A stretch of 64,000 nt of DNA from Microterricola viridarii (GTDB lineage: Bacteria; Actinomycetota; Actinomycetes; Actinomycetales; Microbacteriaceae). The notes below the pieces were generated by a model that did no database searches, was not told the origin of the DNA, and worked only from the letters and a program-made list of their open reading frames with translations. Below, piece by piece: positions 3,311-19,739 of this stretch. The first letter of the stretch is position 1; each line of letters starts with the position of its first letter. The stretch is taken from the NCBI RefSeq assembly GCF_001542775.1, contig NZ_CP014145.1:682001-746000 (forward strand), written 5' to 3'. The position numbers and the translations under genes were made by a program.

Positions 3311-3352
3311 CAGAAGGCCCGGAACCAAAAGGTTCCGGGCCTTCTGTGTTTC
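3311..3352 (+). terminator. Terminator of tRNA-fMet copy 1
   Basis: A perfect 16-bp stem (CAGAAGGCCCGGAACC with its complement) around loop AAAA, followed by TGTTT. It lies 7 bases after the tRNA. Confidence 0.9.
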
Positions 3353-3396
3353 CGGGCCTTCTGTGTTTCCGGGCCTTCTGTGTTTCCGGGCCTTTT
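3332..3396 (+). repeat. 17-bp tandem repeat of a terminator half-arm
   Basis: The 3' arm of the preceding terminator plus its T-tail (unit TTTCCGGGCCTTCTGTG) is repeated head to tail about four times, the last copy decayed to TTTCCGGGCCTTTTGCG. Each copy could pair with the single 5' arm at 3311-3326, so alternative hairpins are possible. It looks like replication slippage on the hairpin. Confidence 0.85.
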
Positions 3397-3419
3397 GCGT
3401 CGACGAGCCCGCCCGTGCT

Positions 3420-5385: not shown

Positions 5386-5459
5386 CGCGGGGTGGAGCAG
5401 CTCGGTAGCTCGCTGGGCTCATAACCCAGAGGTCGCAGGTTCAAATCCTGTCCCCGCAA
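5386..5459 (+). tRNA. Initiator tRNA-fMet (CAT), copy 2
   Basis: Identical to the copy at 3231-3304, including C1:A72 and the GGG/CCC anticodon stem. Upstream is a weak promoter-like TAGTAT at 5369-5374. The flanks differ from copy 1. Downstream lies a terminator whose sequence recurs at the two inner island boundaries, so this tRNA marks the left edge of the accessory region. Confidence 0.97.
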
Positions 5460-5463
5460 CGAA

Positions 5464-5726
5464 AGGCAGTTCTCGGAACTGCAGCACAGAATCGCCCTCG
5501 AGGAAACTCGAGGGCGATTCTGTGTTTCTGGGTCCTTTTCGTCGCCGGTGCCGGCCTCGGCGCAGTTCTGGGCCGCTGGGCACCGACTCTGCATCCCCGT
5601 TAGCGACTTTCGGGCTCGCCGAAGAGATCGGTGAGCCTGGGTGTGTGCCCTCGCGGGCGGTGTCGGGTGCCGACTATGCGGTTAGCTGCGCGGGGGAGGT
5701 CCGCCGGTCTCGTCCGACGGCGCGAG
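5464..5726 (+). repeat. Island direct repeat, copy A
   Basis: About 263 bp starting just after tRNA-fMet copy 2 align with 15996-16258 (copy B) with scattered substitutions and small indels. The first ~55 bases also align with 19650-19709 (copy C). Shared blocks include the GAAA-loop hairpin, GTGCCGGCCTCGGC, GTGAGCCTGGGTGTGT and CCGCCGGTCTCGTCCGACGG. The right end overlaps the last 17 or so codons of the truncated recombinase gene, so copy B carries the same coding scrap. Confidence 0.85.
5485..5527 (+). terminator. Terminator behind tRNA-fMet copy 2
   Basis: A perfect 18-bp stem (CACAGAATCGCCCTCGAG with its complement) closed by a GAAA tetraloop and followed by TTT. A smaller hairpin, GCAGTTCTCGGAACTGC, precedes it. 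The same hairpin occurs at 16017-16056 and 19664-19703. Confidence 0.92.
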
Positions 5727-7119: not shown

Positions 7120-7702
7120 ATGCAGCGGAAGACCCCGCACAGCTCCACGCCCACGCCGCCGCGCTCTGGCAGGTGGCAGATTCAGATGAATCGTCCCGGC
7201 ACTACGAACAGGCCGACGGCATCGTCGCCGGCGTCTATGCCGAGCCCGGCAACGACTTCCCGCGGCGCCGCTGAATTGGGCGCGCAGTCTGCACCGCTAC
7301 GAACACCACGGGCGCGAAGGCGGCAGAGCGCCGCGCGAGAACACCCGCGATCGCAGCCACCTCCCGCCAGACGAACGCCGCATGGCCGAGTGGGCCCGCT
7401 ACCAACGCCGCTTCAGTGACTCCCTCTGCCGGTACCAACAGATCCGCCTCGACCTCTCACCGGTATTCCGGTGGGACCCACATGAGGCTGCCTGGCAGAT
7501 GCGCCTCCACGAGTGCAAGCTTCACCGAGTTCGAACAGGAAAACTGCCGCGCCTCAACCAGGATGACCCGCACGAGTTCGCCCTGGCCCGCTGGTTCGGG
7601 CGCCAACTCCGGCAAATGCAGAACGGCACCCTCCATAGATCTCGGGCAATCGCGCTCACCCGGCTCCTCGGCGCAAACGTCGAGGAGGACTTTCCCCTCT
7701 AG
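7120..7702 (+). pseudogene. Helicase-associated (HA) domain protein, frameshifted
   Basis: The intact frame from 7271 to TAG 7702 encodes LNWARSLHRYEHHG..., then an HA-type domain: RWDPHEAAWQ, LHRVRTGKLPRLNQ, ALARWFGRQLRQMQNGTL, RALTRLLG-like end. This matches the helicase-associated domain pattern (G-x-P ... LxRWxxxQR ... G-L ... R-x-x-x-L). Restoring one C at 7259-7261 joins the upstream frame (RHYEQADGIVAGVYAEP). Restoring one C at 7133-7136 joins that to ATG 7120. The result would be a single product of about 195 residues. No helicase motor is present; the domain stands alone. Confidence 0.6.
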
Positions 7703-8480
7703 CCGAGACCGCGTCGACTGTTCGAGGAACCGTCGACCGTATCAACGACTATCCGGTCTAATTCCTCAGATCGGTGGCTGCTCGCGCTGAAGCGTCGCCA
7801 CATCGCTGCCCGATCGTCCACCATTTCAGCGGGAGCCGGCCCCACGAAACTTGGAGCACATTCTGGGCGAGACAACGCAGCAGTCTGCCGACGAACGCCT
7901 CATGTGCGCCCCGACCGACGGCAACTACGCCGGGGGTGAGGTCGTCGCCGTCAGCCCCGACGAGCCCGGGATCTGGATTCACTCGACGAAGTCCGGTGCC
8001 TCGTTCTCACAGCTGTAGTACTCGACCCTGCCACCGCGGCACCCATCGACACAGTCACACGATTCGTAGCTGCCGGCAACGGTTCGCACTTGAACGGTTC
8101 CCCGATGACCGTGCAAGCCAGCACGCCCACAACCATTGGGACACGGTTGACTGCAGCCATCCTGCAAACGCCTCTGCGCGACGCGGATGGTGCGACTCAA
8201 GTGTGGAAGCGGGATCAGCCGGAATGAGTCTCGACCAAGGTCAGTCGATCCGTCCGGTTGCGGCTCGCGAAGTTTCGCTGAGCGGCCACAATTTGCCTTT
8301 TGCCGAGCACCTTTGGGGGTCATGGACACACTTAGGCATGCGTGACACTCGCACGGGAAGCGGGCCTAGGTCGCTTTCGTCGCAGGTAGGAGCTAGCGAA
8401 ACCGAGAGCAACGCCGCCAATTCAATTTTGAGACGCTAGCCATGCCGGCCAAATTGCCGGCGCCCACTACGATCACGACC
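7703..8480. other. Stretch without a confident gene
   Basis: No intact gene recognised. The frame ending at TAG 8018 reads LEHILGETTQQ ... DGNYAGGEVVAVSPDEPG, with a natural-looking protein composition but no start codon. It is probably a remnant. A 221-codon plus-strand frame at 7774-8439 is arginine/serine-rich, changes character throughout and is judged spurious. Confidence 0.5.
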
Positions 8481-9038
8481 ATGTCTCCATCTGAATCCGT
8501 TGCTCTCCTGACAGCCGCAGTTGCCGCTGTCATTGCCATTGGCGTCTTCATCGCGGGCCAGGTGTTGACCTTTCTCGCTTCGCGGAGAGAACGACGGAGA
8601 CTCCTTGTCGTCCGCATGATCGACATAATCGATGATCTGGTTCGTCGACAGAGTATCCCGGCGATGATCCGGAATTGGAAGAACGCAGACATTGAACTCG
8701 CGCTAGTGCAATCGCGCTTAGCAATGGATCTCACAAAGAGGGAGCTGGTGATTGCCGATTGGGTGTGGGGCCAAACGCAGCGGGTGTTCCTCTCCACGAC
8801 AAAGTCGGAGTATGTCGAGTTGACGATGGCTGTCAGCAGCCGACTTGTGCAGTGGCATCGTGGCGCGATCGGTCTCGATTGGTTTGTTGAGGATCTCAGG
8901 CGCAACCCTGTGCAGCCTGATTTCCGGATTCCGAATTCGGTCGGCTGGAAACGAAATTTCGGTGCGATTGGAGAGACCATCACGTTGCTTGGGCTCGTGG
9001 CACTCGTTCTGAACGGGGTCACGCGGGTCATCTTCTGA
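8481..9038 (+). CDS. Small membrane protein with terminal transmembrane helices
   Basis: 185 residues from ATG 8481; the in-frame ATG at 8442 would add a poor N-terminus. A hydrophobic helix lies at about residues 5-35 (AVAAVIAIGVFIAGQVLTFL), followed directly by a basic RRERRR stop-transfer. A soluble domain of about 120 residues rich in charged and aromatic positions comes next, then a second hydrophobic helix at the end (LLGLVALVLNGV). Both ends are anchored, with the middle domain probably in the cytoplasm. The gene is clearly more AT-rich than core genes here. Not recognised. Membrane proteins of this size occur as effectors in defence loci, but nothing here proves that. Confidence 0.7.
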   Translation: MSPSESVALLTAAVAAVIAIGVFIAGQVLTFLASRRERRRLLVVRMIDIIDDLVRRQSIPAMIRNWKNADIELALVQSRLAMDLTKRELVIADWVWGQTQRVFLSTTKSEYVELTMAVSSRLVQWHRGAIGLDWFVEDLRRNPVQPDFRIPNSVGWKRNFGAIGETITLLGLVALVLNGVTRVIF

Positions 9039-9548
9039 CGCTGTGCACGTCCACGGCGCTAGCGAGAGAGCATCGGCCAGAACGCGAGGCCACCAAAGAT
9101 CGTGGCTGAGATCAGAAATGGTTCTCCTCGGCGCCGTTATCAACCAACCTCGGGACTGGTGGGACTACGCAAAACCGGACACAGCGCAACCGGAGTAGGT
9201 CGGGGCCGGCTGCCTTGTCGGGTGACCCGGACCCAGACATGCACCGCCATTCAAACGACGGACATGCTTTTTGTTCGCAAAAGCAGCGCCACCGTACGAA
9301 CGGGCCTGCTTGCTTTCGGTCGTTTCCAGCGCCGCACCACGACTAGTCATCCGAGTGTGCTCGATTCGAGCGTTTCAGTTCCCCGGTTGTCTTCAACCGT
9401 ATGAGTTAGGCAGATCAACAGCAGTCCCGGGCGTGGGTGGAGCCCCGCAAAGAAATCCAAATCCGCACACCCACTTGGGCACGCAGACTGTGGGGAAGGT
9501 CAGGGTGGGATTTGCTGTTAGATCAGCCTGAGGTGTCCGCAGAAAGGG
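9039..9548. other. Convergent intergenic region
   Basis: About 510 bases between two gene 3' ends. No gene, RNA or clear hairpin terminator was identified. Short frames on both strands have no coherent protein character. Confidence 0.5.
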
Positions 9549-11330
9549 CTAACTGAATCGCTGCACAATGGTGACAATCTCCTCTGGGGTGGCTTCGACC
9601 GTTTGATCACCTTTGCGCCAGTAGGCTTTGCCCGCGACGAACGAAGGGCCCTGCTGCGGTGGCACGGAAATCACGATAATGCCGAGGCCGAAGTAGTCAT
9701 GGTAGTCAATGGCCGAGAGCACATCCGCTTTCAACGACGCAGTCAGCTCTGAGCGTTCAATCCCATGCTTGATGCGGGCGAAATATGCTTCCGCGGATTC
9801 GCCGAGGAATACGGCTTCGCGCTGCACGCCAACCACATATCGGTAGCCGACTCTCCGTGGGGAGATTCCGTCTAACGATCCGACCTTTTCGGCGTCTTCA
9901 TCTTTATCTGTAACTCCGATTAGAAGCGACCCGCTCCACTTTCCGTTGTTCGCAATCCCACAGATGGTCCTGACTAGCTTCGGGATCATTCCTTCGTCGA
10001 TTGCGCGCCCACTGGGAGCCAGCGTGAGGATTCCCTGCTTCAGCTCATAGTGAGCTGCTTCCACTTTCGAGCGCTGGATTAGGCCATCAATGTCTGCGAT
10101 CGCCTGGCTCCCGTATATATTTGGCGCTTCACCAGGGACTACATGTGGCGTTATCAGCCCCTTGACCAGGTTGATATGGCGACGACGCTTTTCGAAGCTC
10201 GTCGCTTTCGCCGAGATGTGCACTGACAATCCCTCAAGCGCCGCCTTCATGCCTGCATAGTCGGCAATCCTGTTCTGTTCTTGTACGAGCACCTCGTGCA
10301 ATGCAAAGAACACGACGGCAAAGACGGAAGGAAATCCATTTGTGTTGGGGGACGAAAAGAGTATTTCGCGGAGCTTCTTGGGGCTGCCTGTCAGACACAA
10401 AGTACGGATTTCGTCTATGCAGAAGTTGAACTCGTCGGAGAATCGCTCGCTTCCATAAACTTTAAGGGCCGCTTCGATGCGGGCACTTTCGTCGCTCGTG
10501 GAGTCATATATTGCGTCTAACGCAGATTTGGAGCGCTCAATCACGGCACCGCCAACGATCGATGCGGCAAGGTCGGCAATGTACTGCTCATCGAGGCTGT
10601 CGCGAAGGTCTGTCGCCCGGAGAATTCCATGGCTGACCCAGAAGACGTCTTCGGCCTGCACGTGGTATCCGTGCTTACTCATTGGGAGATCAATACTGAT
10701 TGTGGGCATCTCTTCGAGCAAGAGCGTGTCGCTCGAAACGTCGCCTCTGAGCGTGGTGGCCAGCTCGCGAACCAACGCCGAGAAATCATCCTGCACGCCG
10801 GACTGTCGACGTTCTTGGTCACTCAGGCGGTGCCCGTAGGTGTTGATCCGAGCGAAGACATCATCGATCTCCGCCTCAGACGCTTCGCGCATGATGGTAA
10901 TCGCCATCACGTAGTCCAGAAACATGCTGACCTCACGCTGCGAAAACTTGTTCGGCTCGGAGGTCTGCTCGAACTTATCTTCATCGGCCCGCAGCTGCGC
11001 GGTTGAAAAATGTGAAACGTCGAAGTGTCGTCCGTCCAGGGCTGGGTAGGCGTTCTCGATAAACGAAATAATTGCGAAGAGCCTCTGCACGCCATCGATG
11101 ATTTCGAAGCCGCCGCCCTCCCGCTCCGCGAGAAGAATCGCGGGGACCGGATACTGGCTCGAGATCGATTCGATCAGCTTCTGTTTCTCATGCAGCGTCC
11201 AGACCAGTTTTCGCTGGTAGCGACGATTCACGAACAGCTTCCCCTCGCTGTGCCACGCGTAGATGGACTGAATGACCTTTGGTGAAGCGTCGAGAGCAGG
11301 CATGGTGAGCAGCTTGCCATAGCGGGCCAT
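9549..11330 (-). CDS. DUF262 (ParB/Srx-like) - AlbA_2 fusion protein, candidate defence gene
   Basis: 593 residues. The N-terminal half has DUF262 marks: NRRYQRKLVWT near residue 35 and IIDGVQRL at 77-84. This is the family's (I)xDGQQR motif with Val for the first Gln, found in GmrSD-type and Ssp/BREX-associated nucleases. The C-terminal ~190 residues look like a Schlafen-type AlbA_2 domain: EAAHYELKQGIL, ICGIANNGKWSGSLLIGVTD, then a beta-rich region with AYWRKGDQTVEATPEEI. The usual FAN-x-x-GG is here IANNGKWSG. The long middle region is unassigned. DUF262 proteins often act as DNA-modification-dependent nucleases and AlbA_2 domains bind nucleic acid, so an antiviral role is likely but inferred. 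The start is ATG 11330; ATG 11303 is possible. Confidence 0.82.
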   Translation of the reverse strand: MARYGKLLTMPALDASPKVIQSIYAWHSEGKLFVNRRYQRKLVWTLHEKQKLIESISSQYPVPAILLAEREGGGFEIIDGVQRLFAIISFIENAYPALDGRHFDVSHFSTAQLRADEDKFEQTSEPNKFSQREVSMFLDYVMAITIMREASEAEIDDVFARINTYGHRLSDQERRQSGVQDDFSALVRELATTLRGDVSSDTLLLEEMPTISIDLPMSKHGYHVQAEDVFWVSHGILRATDLRDSLDEQYIADLAASIVGGAVIERSKSALDAIYDSTSDESARIEAALKVYGSERFSDEFNFCIDEIRTLCLTGSPKKLREILFSSPNTNGFPSVFAVVFFALHEVLVQEQNRIADYAGMKAALEGLSVHISAKATSFEKRRRHINLVKGLITPHVVPGEAPNIYGSQAIADIDGLIQRSKVEAAHYELKQGILTLAPSGRAIDEGMIPKLVRTICGIANNGKWSGSLLIGVTDKDEDAEKVGSLDGISPRRVGYRYVVGVQREAVFLGESAEAYFARIKHGIERSELTASLKADVLSAIDYHDYFGLGIIVISVPPQQGPSFVAGKAYWRKGDQTVEATPEEIVTIVQRFS

Positions 11331-13325: not shown

Positions 13326-14510
13326 TTGTTCTTCGAGCAGTTCCCCGGCCAGCGATCTGTGCGCGCCGAGGTCGCTAGAACCATCCTGCTCTTTGGCTCT
13401 GCCTGCGAACATCCGCCGACGTTCGCGCCGGAGGCTATGAAACCGGGATGGTTTGAGGCGATCAGCGACGGACTCTCGCTTGACGAGTACGTCGAGTCCA
13501 TATTTCTCATCTCGGTCGGAGCCCAGAACAGCAGCGGAGCATTCACTCCGAGCTGGCTGGATGGACCTGGATTTAAAGGACTTGATGAGGTGATCTCGTT
13601 CGAAGCTGTGCGGAGGACGTTCTCCGAGCACCTCGTGGTCTCCGCCTCGTCGTTTAAAGTGGTGAATCTCAGATTCCGGGGATCGGTTCCTTCAACGCAG
13701 AAGAAGTTCGCGTTCAATCCCCTCACCGACACGCCTTTCATCGAAGGAATTGCAGCGCTACCGATTGCGCCGTGGTGCCAGGCGGCCATCGCCAAGGCGA
13801 CCCCTCCTGCCATCTATCACCTTGGAGTCCGTGCACTCGACGCGGGTTTCACCAATGACCTTGGCCACGTATTCCAGCACTACGTCGGAAGGCAGCTTGA
13901 ACTCATCAACGGCGAACGCTCGATTCTGCCCGAGGTGCGTTACGGCCCCAAGAAGTCGTCCGTCGATTCATGCGACTGGTTTCTCGACCTTCCCGGGCTG
14001 CTTGTCATGATCGAATGCAAAGCCAGGCAGCCAATCGAATCTCTGAGGACCGGAGGGACTGACTGGCTTCGGTCAGTTGAGGACTCCATCGGAAAGGGCA
14101 TCGCCCAGCTCAACCGGTCGAATAGTGCGATTGAGCGAATTGGTAGCACCGATCCTCGAATCGACACAACAAAGCGGCGAGTCGGAATCGTTGTGACCCT
14201 GGAACCGTTCTACGTCGACCAGAACTGGTTGATACGCGACCAACTAGCTGTTTCTGAGTTTCCGGTGGGGGCGGCCTCGATTATGGAAATGGAAATGCTT
14301 GCGATGTTGAGCGCTGACGAACTCGCAAACGCCCTCTCGGACGCGGCCGCGAGCTCGGAGGGTGGCGTAATGCTGCTTTCCCTAGCTCTCGACGCTGCAG
14401 CGGGACGCGAGAACCCACTCCTCGTTTCCACGTGGGAATCTATACCTTTGTTTGCACGGGTGGAAGCCGCGGCCACCCGCCTTAGAGCGGAGGTGAGTGA
14501 TAGAGGCTGA
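13326..14510 (+). CDS. PD-(D/E)XK-like nuclease, main part of a split gene
   Basis: About 394 residues, listed from the TTG directly after the TGA; the true start depends on whether the stop is real. A nuclease-like core is visible. The helix FTNDLGHVFQHYVGRQLELI has the layout of the first PD-(D/E)XK helix. Then come D217 in DSCDWFLDLPG and E230-x-K232 in LLVMIECKARQP. A long helical region with KGIAQLNRSNSAIERIG and a strand VGIVVTLEPFYVDQ follow. This is a second nuclease-fold protein in the same island, unrelated in detail to the one at 11834. Whether it is active is unknown. Confidence 0.62.
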   Translation: MFFEQFPGQRSVRAEVARTILLFGSACEHPPTFAPEAMKPGWFEAISDGLSLDEYVESIFLISVGAQNSSGAFTPSWLDGPGFKGLDEVISFEAVRRTFSEHLVVSASSFKVVNLRFRGSVPSTQKKFAFNPLTDTPFIEGIAALPIAPWCQAAIAKATPPAIYHLGVRALDAGFTNDLGHVFQHYVGRQLELINGERSILPEVRYGPKKSSVDSCDWFLDLPGLLVMIECKARQPIESLRTGGTDWLRSVEDSIGKGIAQLNRSNSAIERIGSTDPRIDTTKRRVGIVVTLEPFYVDQNWLIRDQLAVSEFPVGAASIMEMEMLAMLSADELANALSDAAASSEGGVMLLSLALDAAAGRENPLLVSTWESIPLFARVEAAATRLRAEVSDRG

Positions 14511-15611: not shown

Positions 15612-15900
15612 GCGTATGGACCCGTCTCCAACGGCGGGACTGCTATAGATTTGCCTGACTCCTGAACCAATGTGCGCAAGTGCACCTTCTGTCCGCCAGC
15701 ATTGCCAGTCGAATGATTTTAGGAAGGCCGCTCTGAGTGCAGTGTGTTTGCCCGGGGGAATTGGTTCATCGTGAACTCGCAGTGAGCATATTGGATCGCG
15801 GTCGCGATATCTGGGTCCTTCGAACTTGCAGCTTGCGCGCTTCGCAGTGCTTTAGTGTCGGCGAAATGAGCGGTCCTCCACGGAACGATCCAAGCCCGGC
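15612..15900. other. Intergenic stretch before repeat copy B
   Basis: About 290 bases. No gene or RNA was identified. Confidence 0.4.
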
Positions 15901-16258
15901 AAGTGTGGAGGAAAATCACGAGGGACACGGAGGAAAATGCGTTTCGCGGCGGCCTGCGATCCGCATGCTGACGGGTTTCGCGAACAGCCCACAGGAGGTA
16001 GTTCTCGGAACGGCCACACAGAATCGCCCTCGAGGAAACTCGAGGGCGATTCTGTGTTTCCGGGGCCTTTTCGTCGCCAGTGCCGGCCTCGGCCACAGCA
16101 ATGGGCCGCTGGTCACCGAATCTGTGCGCCCGTTAACGACTTTCAGGCTCGCCGAAAAGTTCAGTGAGCCTGGGTGTGTACCCTCTCGGGCGGTATCGGG
16201 GCCGGCTGTGCTGCTAGGTGCGCAGGGGCGGACCGCCGGTCTCGTCCGACGGCGCGAG
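15901..16258 (+). repeat. Island direct repeat, copy B (hybrid of A and C types)
   Basis: Two blocks. 15901-16061 aligns with copy C (19548-19709): AAGTGTGGAGGAAAATCACG, GACGGGTTTCGCGAACAGCC and the GAAA-loop terminator. 15996-16258 aligns with copy A (5464-5726) through to the recombinase scrap GGTCTCGTCCGACGGCGCGAG. The hairpin is the segment common to all three copies. Copy B separates the two compartments of the island. Confidence 0.85.
16017..16059 (+). terminator. Terminator hairpin in repeat copy B
   Basis: Same 18-bp stem and GAAA loop as at 5485-5524, followed by TTT. No tRNA precedes it here, so it is an orphan terminator carried by the repeat. Confidence 0.85.
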
Positions 16259-16272
16259 TCTCGCCAGAGCCT

Positions 16273-19095
16273 CTACCGGTCTAGCTGGGGGAACGTTCCC
16301 CTGCCCAAATTCAGCGCCTGAAGGTCGGCCCACAGCCAGTTCGCTGCCTTCTGACTTGCTGGCCGAGAATGACTGCTGGCGTCGGCCACGGAGGTTGAGT
16401 ACGAGGAGCCGCGGGCGAAAGGATTCGAGGAAGCAAATTTGCCAGGTTGGTGTTCATGCCGCATGTGGCGCGAGACCCAGTTCTCAGTGGATTCCGTTAC
16501 GCCGGACAGAGTGACCACTGCTCTGTGATTCGACGACCAGTAGGCGGGGAGGTCTGAGTGGCGCAGCGCTGGACCTAATGCGTCAAGCGGAACGACTGCG
16601 GAGGTTATCCCGGGGCTCCGAGCCCCTAACAAGCCCGTACCTCGAAAATCAAGATGTGCAATGACGCCGAACTCACCTTGGGCTCCGGTTCCCATCGCCC
16701 AGGCGAACTTCAAGAACACGGTCGAGACGGCCTCGTCGTACGCGACACATGCGAGTCCAAATGTCTCAGCGTAGAAGCGCTGCAACTGTTCATCTGAGTA
16801 GATGTCCCATACCCAGGTGCTCTCGGCTTTCTTGGCTGGAAAATCGGGTCGAGGGACCAGCCGTCCGAACTCTTTGCGCGTGCTTGCGTTCAGTACGGCG
16901 ACAAGATTCAAGAGATCAAGGCCCGGGATCCTTCGATTGCCGGTCACGAAGAGGGTGGTCTCTGGCTCCGGGGTGTGCTGCAGCAGCGCTGATGCTCTGT
17001 CCAACAGCAACTCCCGCGACATGGGCGCATGGAGAATACTCTGCTGGCCAATTAGGCTCCGGGCAGTGCGGTAGGCGCTTTCGGTCCGCCATACGCCGTT
17101 TTCCGGCCCAAATAGAGAGGTTCGGTTCAGGAGATCCAGCGATGAGCTCGCAATTCGATCAACGGGCAGCAGCCACGGCCATTCAGCACCCTCTGGTATG
17201 GCTCCCGACCGCCAGAAACGCCAACCCTCTCTTTCCTGCCGGAAGGGACCCACATCTACCGGGAGGTCAATTACTCTGTCACCCCCAGAAGAATCACTGA
17301 GCCATCCCGAACTAACTTGGCTTCCATCCGTACGAACGCCCAAGACGATGGGATCATCTGGCGCGTTGATTGGGAACATCGTTGGGGCAAGAGGCCCAAT
17401 TGACGAGACGACAGCACGCGTCGCACGCAGAAGGCGCGCCTTGGCATTCTCAGACTCGATCGGCGCACTTGCAGAAGGGCGAAACCAACTGTGACCTTCC
17501 GCGATCTGAGTGAGCAGCCACGCACCGGCTCCCGGATTCCACAAGAAGACCTGTTCTAGCAGGGAGTCGAGCTGTTCCTCGCTGCTGGCGATGCCAGCGA
17601 TCGCAAGCACCCACCGCCATCGGTCGAATGACTCCAAAGACTCGATTGCAGACAGTGTGGTCGCGGGGTCGGCAAGAACGCCTTGAGCGGCGAACCACTG
17701 CTGGAAAATGGGCAGGGTGAATTCAAGACTTTGGTCCGCGACCCGCTCATGAACGAGCGTGCTGGCGCGAACCTGTTGCCTCTCCTGAAAGGTGAGTCCA
17801 TCCCTCACGTTTCCAGTTCGAGTCGCTTCGATGGCCATACGGATGAGTAGCGCGTAGATCTCACTCGAACGCACAGCGGCGGAGGCTGCACTCTCGGAGC
17901 TCAACGCACGCTGCACTAGTCGCGCGATGAGATCTGCCTGGCCCGTGGGGCGTTCTCCCTCGCGGATGGCGATCGCGGCTGCGAGAGCGAAGAACGGCCG
18001 GCGGACGGCGTCAGCTAAAAGCGGGTTCCACGACCACGTGACGCGGGCGCTTCCTGCGACACGCTCGATGAGAAGTGTCGCCTCCTCCTGACTGAGGCCC
18101 TCCAGATGGGAGTGGTCACGAGTCGACTCCAAAACGCCGGGCCTACAGGTGAGCAACGCTCCGCTCTTTTTGTGAGTCCCGGCGAACACCTTAGCTTCGG
18201 CGACGATACGGGCCGCAAGCGCGGCCTCAACCTCGTCTAGCCCGTCGACCACAATCGACGCACCACGAGTGGCTAGCGCGTCGACGGACATTGTCCGGGC
18301 AACATTGGTTTCCAGCGAGTCGTTACGCATCTCCCGCGCGTGGAGCCAAATAGGTCGCGTCGCTGCCGCTTCCACTGCGAACCGATCGACTGTGCTCAGG
18401 AACCAGTCTTCTGCAACCTCAGACTTCCCGGAGCCGACCGGACCGATAAGCACCCTAACTTCGCCTGGCGCAACGACCGGCACGCGTGTTCGAAGCGAAT
18501 CGAACGCTGCCGAAATCACCTCTTCGTCTATTCCGAAGGGCTCGAGCCTCACCCTCCGACGGGCGGCCGACGCCCGGCGAAGAAGCTGAGCTTCGTCGCT
18601 CGGGGTGAGCCTCATCGGCGCACCAAACTCTTGCGAGAAGGCGTGCAGCAGTTGTTCGTGCCGAGCTCGCGCCCAATGATCACGCAGAATGTCAGCATCC
18701 GCTTGATCTGCCAAGGCAATCATCGCGTCGTACGTGGCTTCCACGAGAAGTATTGCTGAGGAATGATGGCTAATACCATCACGCCACGTCGATTCGACAC
18801 TGAAGTACTGATCGAGATCGAGTGCCAGGCGTGGTCCGCCCACCTCGACGGGTTCAGTCAGAGCCTTGAGGTTGAGCTGCTTCAGCCAGCGACGATACAG
18901 CCTGCCCGGATACTGGATGTCTGAAGACGCGCGAACCTTGCGCGCGACTCTCCATCGAAGGGTGGCCGACTTGACAAGCTTTGCTGCTAACTGGCCTGCG
19001 ATCGGTGCGGCCGCCTTGCCAACGAGGGGAACGACGACCTCTATACCGCTCACTTCACCTTTCCCTTCAGGAGCGACTGTAACGTAGTTGGCCAT
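16273..19095 (-). CDS. NACHT/STAND-like NTPase, candidate single-gene defence system
   Basis: 940 residues from ATG 19095. N-terminal domain of about 195 residues: a hydrophobic/helical start (VVVPLVGKAAAPIAGQLAAK), then helices with LLVEATYDAMIALAD. The NTPase domain has Walker A GPVGSGKS at 218-225 and Walker B IVVDGLDEVE at 281-290. That is the hhhhDGLDE form typical of NACHT/STAND proteins, with a sensor-like LLTCRPG after it. A helical winged-helix-like region follows, then a C-terminal half of about 450 residues with no visible tandem repeats, probably the sensor. No effector motif (nuclease, TIR, protease) is evident at either end. It is the only gene between repeat copies B and C. Antiphage function is inferred from the family. 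Confidence 0.82.
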   Translation of the reverse strand: MANYVTVAPEGKGEVSGIEVVVPLVGKAAAPIAGQLAAKLVKSATLRWRVARKVRASSDIQYPGRLYRRWLKQLNLKALTEPVEVGGPRLALDLDQYFSVESTWRDGISHHSSAILLVEATYDAMIALADQADADILRDHWARARHEQLLHAFSQEFGAPMRLTPSDEAQLLRRASAARRRVRLEPFGIDEEVISAAFDSLRTRVPVVAPGEVRVLIGPVGSGKSEVAEDWFLSTVDRFAVEAAATRPIWLHAREMRNDSLETNVARTMSVDALATRGASIVVDGLDEVEAALAARIVAEAKVFAGTHKKSGALLTCRPGVLESTRDHSHLEGLSQEEATLLIERVAGSARVTWSWNPLLADAVRRPFFALAAAIAIREGERPTGQADLIARLVQRALSSESAASAAVRSSEIYALLIRMAIEATRTGNVRDGLTFQERQQVRASTLVHERVADQSLEFTLPIFQQWFAAQGVLADPATTLSAIESLESFDRWRWVLAIAGIASSEEQLDSLLEQVFLWNPGAGAWLLTQIAEGHSWFRPSASAPIESENAKARLLRATRAVVSSIGPLAPTMFPINAPDDPIVLGVRTDGSQVSSGWLSDSSGGDRVIDLPVDVGPFRQEREGWRFWRSGAIPEGAEWPWLLPVDRIASSSLDLLNRTSLFGPENGVWRTESAYRTARSLIGQQSILHAPMSRELLLDRASALLQHTPEPETTLFVTGNRRIPGLDLLNLVAVLNASTRKEFGRLVPRPDFPAKKAESTWVWDIYSDEQLQRFYAETFGLACVAYDEAVSTVFLKFAWAMGTGAQGEFGVIAHLDFRGTGLLGARSPGITSAVVPLDALGPALRHSDLPAYWSSNHRAVVTLSGVTESTENWVSRHMRHEHQPGKFASSNPFARGSSYSTSVADASSHSRPASQKAANWLWADLQALNLGRGTFPQLDR

Positions 19096-19547
19096 TCGCC
19101 ACTCAAGGCGGAGCTCGTCTCGTCACAATCTGACTGTGTTCTTGGTTGTAATGCCAACGATGCCCACGAGCTGCGGACGTAGTCGCAGTGGAGGCATCTT
19201 TGACAGCGCGAGAAGTAATCTGGCCTCACTGCGCGGCAGCACGGTGATCGAGCGGGGTCTAGCCGACCCTTCAATTGGCCCGGGGCTTGACACAGCGCTT
19301 CGCTTGCTTGGCCCGCGTCCGGAAGGTCCTGCGCGACGTAGTGCATCTCAACAGGAACGGCCGGCACCGCCGGCGCAAGCGGTAACGCGACGACGTTGCA
19401 GCCTGCGACGTCCAATTCGACTGAACCCCCTGCCAAGGTCCTTGAACGGGAAGCTGGACGCGCGGCAAGTTCTTGAGCCAGAAGGACGAGCTTGCAAGCT
19501 GACCGGCAGCGGCGCCGGCAGGTAGCTCTAAGGAATCACTCGCCGTC
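19096..19547. other. Intergenic region upstream of the STAND gene
   Basis: About 450 bases between the STAND gene start and repeat copy C. It should hold the STAND promoter, but none can be placed with confidence. Small frames on both strands look random. Confidence 0.4.
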
Positions 19548-19709
19548 AAGTGTGGAGGAAAATCACGCGAACCGTGGAGGAAAACGCATTTCGTGAGAGG
19601 CTGCGATCCGCGTCCTGACGGGTTTCGCGAACAGCCCACGAAATGCAGTTCTCCGAACTGCAACACAGAATCGCCCTCGAGGAAACTCGAGGGCGATTCT
19701 GTGTTTCTG
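19548..19709 (+). repeat. Island direct repeat, copy C (right edge)
   Basis: About 162 bp aligned with 15901-16061. It contains two direct copies of GTGGAGGAAAA, 22 bases apart, and ends with the GAAA-loop hairpin (19664-19703). The SulP gene stop codon is 30 bases away, so this copy marks the right end of the island, and the hairpin may also terminate sulP transcription. Confidence 0.85.
19664..19706 (-). terminator. Terminator hairpin in repeat copy C
   Basis: The same 18-bp stem with GAAA loop. It lies 34 bases past the minus-strand sulP stop codon. On that strand the hairpin is followed by GTTGCAG rather than a T-run, so its efficiency there is uncertain. Confidence 0.6.
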
Positions 19710-19739
19710 GGTGACTTCGCGGGTGGAGCGCGCCAGCTG

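Follow-up and report, generated by a model that had tools for sequence, protein, structure and literature searches.

What kind of protein is encoded by the long reading frame that lies alone between two repeats in the window (the whole stretch of 64,000 nucleotides analysed here), and how is the gene carried there? The initial annotation had described a frame at 16273–19095 as the sole gene between repeat copies B and C. The frame, on the minus strand, is present and uninterrupted, with 940 codons from an ATG at 19095, and we judge it to be the only credible gene in this interval; the other open reading frames of at least 100 residues there are either antisense to it or start from TTG without support. 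Its GC content is 0.602, compared with 0.669 for the window. A GTG at 19053 forms codon 15 of the frame. In three relatives from the same clade (L026, L027 and L029) the first start codon is found only at M(S/T)G(L/F)E, the point equivalent to GTG 19053; a fourth (L028) has a GTG at this point together with an ATG 15 codons upstream, and the annotated start of a fifth (L016, MIDVV) is close to it. Given the starts of these five relatives and the low confidence of residues 1–30 in the predicted model (pLDDT below 50), the true start is probably the GTG at 19053, which would give a protein of 926 residues.

Position of the gene on a tandem integrative element

The features that define the location of the gene are as follows.

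5386–5460 (+): tRNA-Met, the site of the tandem elements
5459–5726 (+): core A and the left end of the first tandem element (repeat copy A: 5464–5726)
15896–15990 (+): right end of the neighbouring element, the first part of repeat B (15896–16258 as a whole: right end, core and left end)
15991–16065 (+): core with a hairpin, common to A, B and C; junction of the two tandem elements
16066–16258 (+): left end of the receptor-carrying element, comprising a non-coding part and the last ~50 bp of a gene for a 643-residue element protein
16273–19095 (−): probable NLR-like receptor gene
19543–19637 (+): right end of the receptor-carrying element, the first part of repeat C (19543–19711 as a whole)
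19638–19712 (+): core copy C, at the boundary with a chromosomal SulP gene

The three repeats noted previously all exist, but they are not simple copies of one another: A is a core followed by a left end, C is a right end followed by a core, and B combines right end, core and left end. We aligned 12 stretches from the window, from three other genomes of the genus (G001, G002 and G004) and from a tRNA-Pro site in the window's own genome. Eleven of them fit a left end, a right end or a junction, and the G001 stretch consists of a tRNA and core with no recognisable end. In this plan the tRNA and the 75-bp core are followed by a left end, a right end is followed by the core, and the full order of right end, core and left end occurs in copy B, at one G002 site and at the tRNA-Pro site. 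This locus therefore shows the arrangement of a tandem integrative element at a tRNA, in which the left and right ends differ and every boundary carries the common core. Judged from this alignment, copy B is the junction of two tandem elements, and from the same plan of ends and junction the receptor gene is the sole cargo of the second element, which has kept its ends and lacks a recombinase gene.

The distance from the tRNA-Met pair to the SulP gene is about 14 kb in the window, about 21 kb in G002 and about 4 kb in G004, the three genomes of the genus in which both flanks were found; for G001 and G003 the analysis located the tRNA side, with no SulP flank found beside it. Tandem elements with the 75-bp hairpin core thus occupy tRNA-Met, with a related arrangement at tRNA-Pro in the same genome (window; L010, 8013–13416; L072, L073 and L074), and their cargo varies across the genus. 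In G002 the gene for the 643-residue element protein is open and follows the left end (L073, 1100–3031, minus strand). A by-eye reading of its product as a transposase was dropped, since it has no Pfam match. It is followed by a protein with a phage-integrase match just below the cut-off (4.9e-6) and a gene that looks recombinase-like by eye and then by apparent type I modification and specificity genes, also assigned by eye. Farther along at the G002 hotspot (L074, 2375–4155) a Cap15 receptor-domain protein (4.7e-10) is encoded beside a nucleotidyltransferase that resembles a CD-NTase by eye, with no Pfam match, and by eye the two look like a CBASS-like pair. At this hotspot in G004 the cargo of the element looks metabolic or regulatory by eye, so these elements do not appear to carry defence genes only.

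Three further observations concern the window. The neighbouring element encodes a 593-residue defence candidate (9549–11330, minus strand) with matches to GmrSD_N (1.8e-21) and PADLOC NsnA (1.8e-25) and a sub-threshold match to Schlafen AlbA_2. A 394-residue protein (13326–14510, plus strand) has a weak match to the antiphage protein GapS1 (2.4e-8, far under the curated cut-off). Immediately behind the first tRNA-Met, at 3333–3400, there is a repeated 17-bp unit.

Domain organization of the proposed receptor

The protein can be divided into three parts.

18604–19095 (−): residues 1–164, helical N-terminal domain in the effector position, common to the five relatives found and with no library match
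17479–18603 (−): residues 165–539, NACHT-type NTPase module with helical and winged-helix parts, assigned from sequence, model and NLR structure matches
16276–17478 (−): residues 540–940, family-wide putative sensor; confident model with no PDB match

STAND NTPases of the NACHT type carry a Walker A motif and a Walker B motif of the D-G-h-D-E kind. Both motifs reported by the initial annotation are confirmed, GPVGSGKS at residues 218–225 and IVVDGLDE at residues 281–288, and both lie inside conserved blocks of the family, so that the query protein carries the STAND/NACHT signature. Glu288 is invariant and Asp284 nearly invariant in a 12-row family alignment, and DGLDE is invariant in the six-member clade of the query. 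In the predicted model the nucleotide-binding domain is followed by helical and winged-helix parts, in the order seen in NLRs, and animal NLRs are better matches to the model than 6mfv, the solved prokaryotic STAND protein, is. The proposed STAND/NACHT-like class is thus supported at the level of fold, but the Pfam NACHT model (PF05729) gives no match to the query at an E value of 1, and among the matches listed for the relatives it stays below the cut-off (best 22.9 compared with 26.7 bits, for the N-terminal piece of L032).

As had been noted from the sequence, the long N-terminal and C-terminal regions lack recognisable motifs: no library scan of the query produced a match above its cut-off. 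Pfam returned one sub-threshold AAA match (0.013), NCBIfam one sub-threshold match (0.092), PHROGs no match, and PADLOC only a sub-threshold match of the P-loop region to mad3 (E value 0.04–0.05; 0.048); a PDB sequence search yielded chance-level matches only. PADLOC names many of the N-termini in the family (25 of 32 families being listed for the 35 full rows), yet the same library gave no convincing match for ten cores, with mad3, mad8 and RtcR at E values of 0.005–0.04 (PADLOC 2.0.0). Membership in Avs was set aside, as none of its Avs models is among the matches listed for the query or the ten cores.

The C-terminal region is family-wide and can be aligned across seven phyla while the N-termini change. 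Searched alone it matched no PDB structure, animal NLRs included; no Pfam domain was found at the C-terminus of the query or its relatives, neither a DNA-binding domain nor another of regulator type turned up there, and no leucine-rich repeats were seen in the query. We regard the region as a putative sensor, and on the model its fold is possibly new.

Residues 30–157 of the N-terminal domain are mostly helical in the predicted model. Among the six clade sequences Val50, Val54, Arg68, Trp70, Leu71, Leu79, Pro82, Leu90, Ala91, Leu94, Trp104, Ala114, Ala124, Leu137, Trp141 and Arg145 are invariant; all are hydrophobic, small, proline or arginine residues and none is typical of catalysis. From the nature of these residues the N-terminus is more likely to be non-enzymatic than an unrecognised enzyme, and an enzymatic reading was set aside, with the caution that six sequences are few. 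The maximum 19-residue hydropathy is 1.5–1.6, high near the start, in three of the six and 1.0–1.2 in the other three, and an action at the membrane is therefore only a guess. When this type of domain was searched for elsewhere, it was found only in the query and five relatives.

Relatives and exchange of N-terminal domains

The gene occurs in one of five genomes of the genus, namely the window's own, and in five of 396 genomes of the phylum, own included; in the taxonomic family six of 398 genomes gave matches, of which only the gene itself and G055 are convincing, the latter being the same protein as L048 of Leucobacter chinensis. Plasmid records gave 11 matches, the best from Microbacterium hominis (40.5% over 98%). 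Scanning genome contigs with the 12-row alignment gave 26 loci from 108 pattern stretches (E values relative to these candidates). By organism name the relatives come from Actinomycetota, Cyanobacteriota, Chloroflexota, Bacillota, Verrucomicrobiota, Deinococcota and Planctomycetota. Phage records and IMG/VR yielded no relative, so nothing ties the receptor directly to phage.

In the material inspected, relatives are not found mainly in conserved core contexts, the distribution that the initial annotation had set against its own reading: besides the single genome in the genus and the 11 plasmid records, two of four chromosomal clade relatives lie beside restriction–modification genes. Neighbours were inspected descriptively, at few loci and partly by eye. 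L027 follows hsdM (1.5e-94) and hsdR genes and L029 adjoins a ResIII protein and a DNA methylase. No restriction–modification neighbour was recognised for the other two, L026 and L028; nothing near L026 was recognised as defence, and near L028 there are an integrase fragment that stays below cut-off and a gene resembling an ATPase, the latter with no Pfam match. The Microbacterium relative lies on a plasmid that carries relaxase and transfer genes, though PLSDB types this plasmid as non-mobilizable. DUF3800 genes occur close to two plasmid relatives from different phyla (L016, 6391–7077; L018, 8376–9560).

The family alignment contains 35 rows from plasmid records (six of the 11 used) and genome scans. 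L048 (the same gene as L011), L051 (fragments) and the short weak matches L012–L015 from the taxonomic-family search were left out, L023 was replaced by its duplicate L042, and a weak C-terminal match in G634 (1.8e-7) lies outside the set. L050 (7126–10199), a Bacillus relative in which the gene is split into separate frames with the hydrolase part separated from the core, was kept as a partial row of 512 residues and excluded from the tree. To part N-terminus from core, each row was divided where query residue 165 aligns. In 34 of the 35 the core has 713–790 residues, while the N-terminus ranges from 16 to 388. N-termini could be named in 14 rows and are of eight kinds.

EAD10: L017 and L033, match; L036 by similarity to L033
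DUF4062: L031, match; L044 below cut-off, with z 39.9 to L031
SMEK: L038
Metallophosphatase: L049
HNH: L020, PADLOC, with Pfam HNH_2 slightly below cut-off; L035 and L047 by similarity
SEFIR: L019
Alpha/beta hydrolase: L018, from the name of the record and an LmuA match
LmuA/DUF4297 or PDC-M54A: L045 (LmuA/DUF4297 matches) and L043 (PDC-M54A match), with no resemblance between the two N-termini (z −1.1)

The remaining 21 rows comprise six with the N-terminus of the query type (query included), three with another common one (L022, L042 and L024), seven that could not be named, four that are short and the partial row. The clearest exchange is between L032 and L040, in which the cores are 83% identical (646 of 783) and no similarity could be detected between the N-termini (z 0.6). 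The reverse is seen in L047 and L020, which have a common HNH N-terminus (z 27.4) on cores that are just 25% identical. When 34 cores are placed on a tree, the clade of the query forms one group (100/100), and the HNH, EAD10 and DUF4062 N-termini each require at least two changes. The counts use these three kinds only; the labels DUF4297-like (L011, L039 and partly L043), transmembrane (L021) and REase-like (L046) were placed on the tree by eye. The same core is thus found on unrelated N-termini, the pattern of a family with swappable effectors. From this pattern among relatives, the view that the N-terminus occupies an effector position, as the initial annotation had it, is strongly supported by the alignments, but its hidden effector is less likely to be an enzyme.

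In three relatives a separate small gene or frame adjoins the core. In L030 a small gene (7378–7908) overlaps a receptor gene with a short N-terminus (7905–10247), and the C-terminus of the small gene and the start of the receptor have a common motif (z 6.5, 0 of 500 shuffles; cross pairs 2.0 or less). In L037 the core likewise has a short N-terminus, and a small gene overlaps or abuts it; in L041 a 149-codon frame (7347–7796) precedes the core (7797–10112) in the same frame with one stop codon between them. No shared motif was found in L037 or L041 (z −0.1 and 0.5).

Interpretation and comparison with known systems

Taken together, the alignments and the predicted model demonstrate a tripartite build, interchangeable N-termini and an accessory position on a tandem integrative element. 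In our view, the protein is probably an NLR-like (STAND, NACHT-type) intracellular receptor and its gene an accessory defence gene. By analogy with NLRs and with bNACHT proteins, as the latter are described in PMC12169576, sensing would be C-terminal, oligomerization NTP-driven and output N-terminal. The C-terminal domain would hold the protein inactive until it met a product of an invader or a change that the invader causes in the host, ATP binding would then drive oligomerization, and the clustered N-terminal helical domains would act, most likely on the membrane or through a recruited partner, so that the cell is stopped in an abortive response. Phage as the trigger, proposed initially, is not supported as stated: no Avs model matched and nothing in the analysis shows phage to be what is sensed.

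A variant that overlaps this reading makes the N-terminal helical domain an adaptor which recruits a separate effector, in a role like that of EADs or death folds. EAD10, an adaptor-type domain according to PMC8195603, fills the same position in L017 and L033, with L036 alike, and the separate frames of L030, L037 and L041 and the motif common to the L030 pair would suit such a role; however, the other two pairs lack the motif and the interval between repeats B and C contains no effector gene next to the query, and we consider the variant rather unlikely. That the protein is a STAND protein regulating some ordinary process of the cell, such as transcription or plasmid or element maintenance, seems improbable to us, given the lack of any regulator-type domain found at the C-terminus and the mostly defence-type and toxin-type modules among the nameable N-termini. 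In favour of an inactive remnant of element decay, only the last ~50 bp of an element gene are left beside the receptor gene, and L050 is a broken relative. Such a remnant would nevertheless be very hard to reconcile with 940 open codons that keep the P-loop, DGLDE and the residues invariant or nearly so across the family, and it was set aside.

Returning to the receptor reading, a broader proposal can be offered tentatively, and we would sooner doubt than assert it as a whole. The family may be a class of NLR-like receptors that crosses phyla, with a C-terminal sensor (within the last ~400 residues) of a fold absent from the PDB; as this sensor can be aligned over seven phyla despite the exchange of effectors, it may respond to a single conserved signal of an invader or of host stress rather than to fast-changing phage proteins. 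The helical N-terminus of the query would be a new domain that kills or recruits by non-enzymatic means and has spread as a cassette of one gene lying between the ends of tandem elements. If correct, this would describe a family of defence receptors absent from the libraries searched here, and would add a bacterial receptor with a model closer to animal NLRs than to 6mfv, along with a sensor domain whose fold may be new. Several of the eight nameable N-terminal kinds on the one core are enzymes with simple assays (nuclease, NADase, hydrolase), so a relative with a readable effector could report what the C-terminal domain detects.

The types of Avs differ in their N-terminal effectors. Avs/AVAST proteins are antiviral STAND proteins (PMC12931631) and have the STAND switch in common with the query, which no PADLOC Avs model recognises. 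Swarozyc is described in PMC13174449 as a DUF4062 NADase with an HTH or winged-helical auxiliary domain; its effector class forms the N-terminus of L031 and L044, whereas the present family has a NACHT-type core and a C-terminal region of its own. In the Bell/BASS amyloid-signalling NLR pairs a short motif is common to the C-terminus of the effector and the N-terminus of the receptor (PMC7889193 and PMC8086366). The overlapping genes and common motif of L030 resemble such pairs in layout and motif; the query lacks a partner gene in the interval from repeat B to repeat C and does not form a pair of this kind. The best-matching animal NLRs (NLRC4, NLRP9, NOD2 and NLRP3) are 12–16% identical to the query over the aligned residues, and the C-terminal region of the query, searched alone, does not match them. 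In bNACHT proteins such as bNACHT25, C-terminal sensing is combined with a central NACHT module and an N-terminal effector that is not recognisable in some of them (PMC12169576). The query has this tripartite order but no Pfam NACHT match, and its C-terminal region is set apart by library and PDB searches rather than by side-by-side comparison with NCH1 and SNaCT. Our literature searches, whose scope excluded the original bNACHT and BASS papers, where an earlier description is possible, found no published account of the family core. On these comparisons this is probably a new family within a known kind of receptor, with a sensor fold that may also be new.
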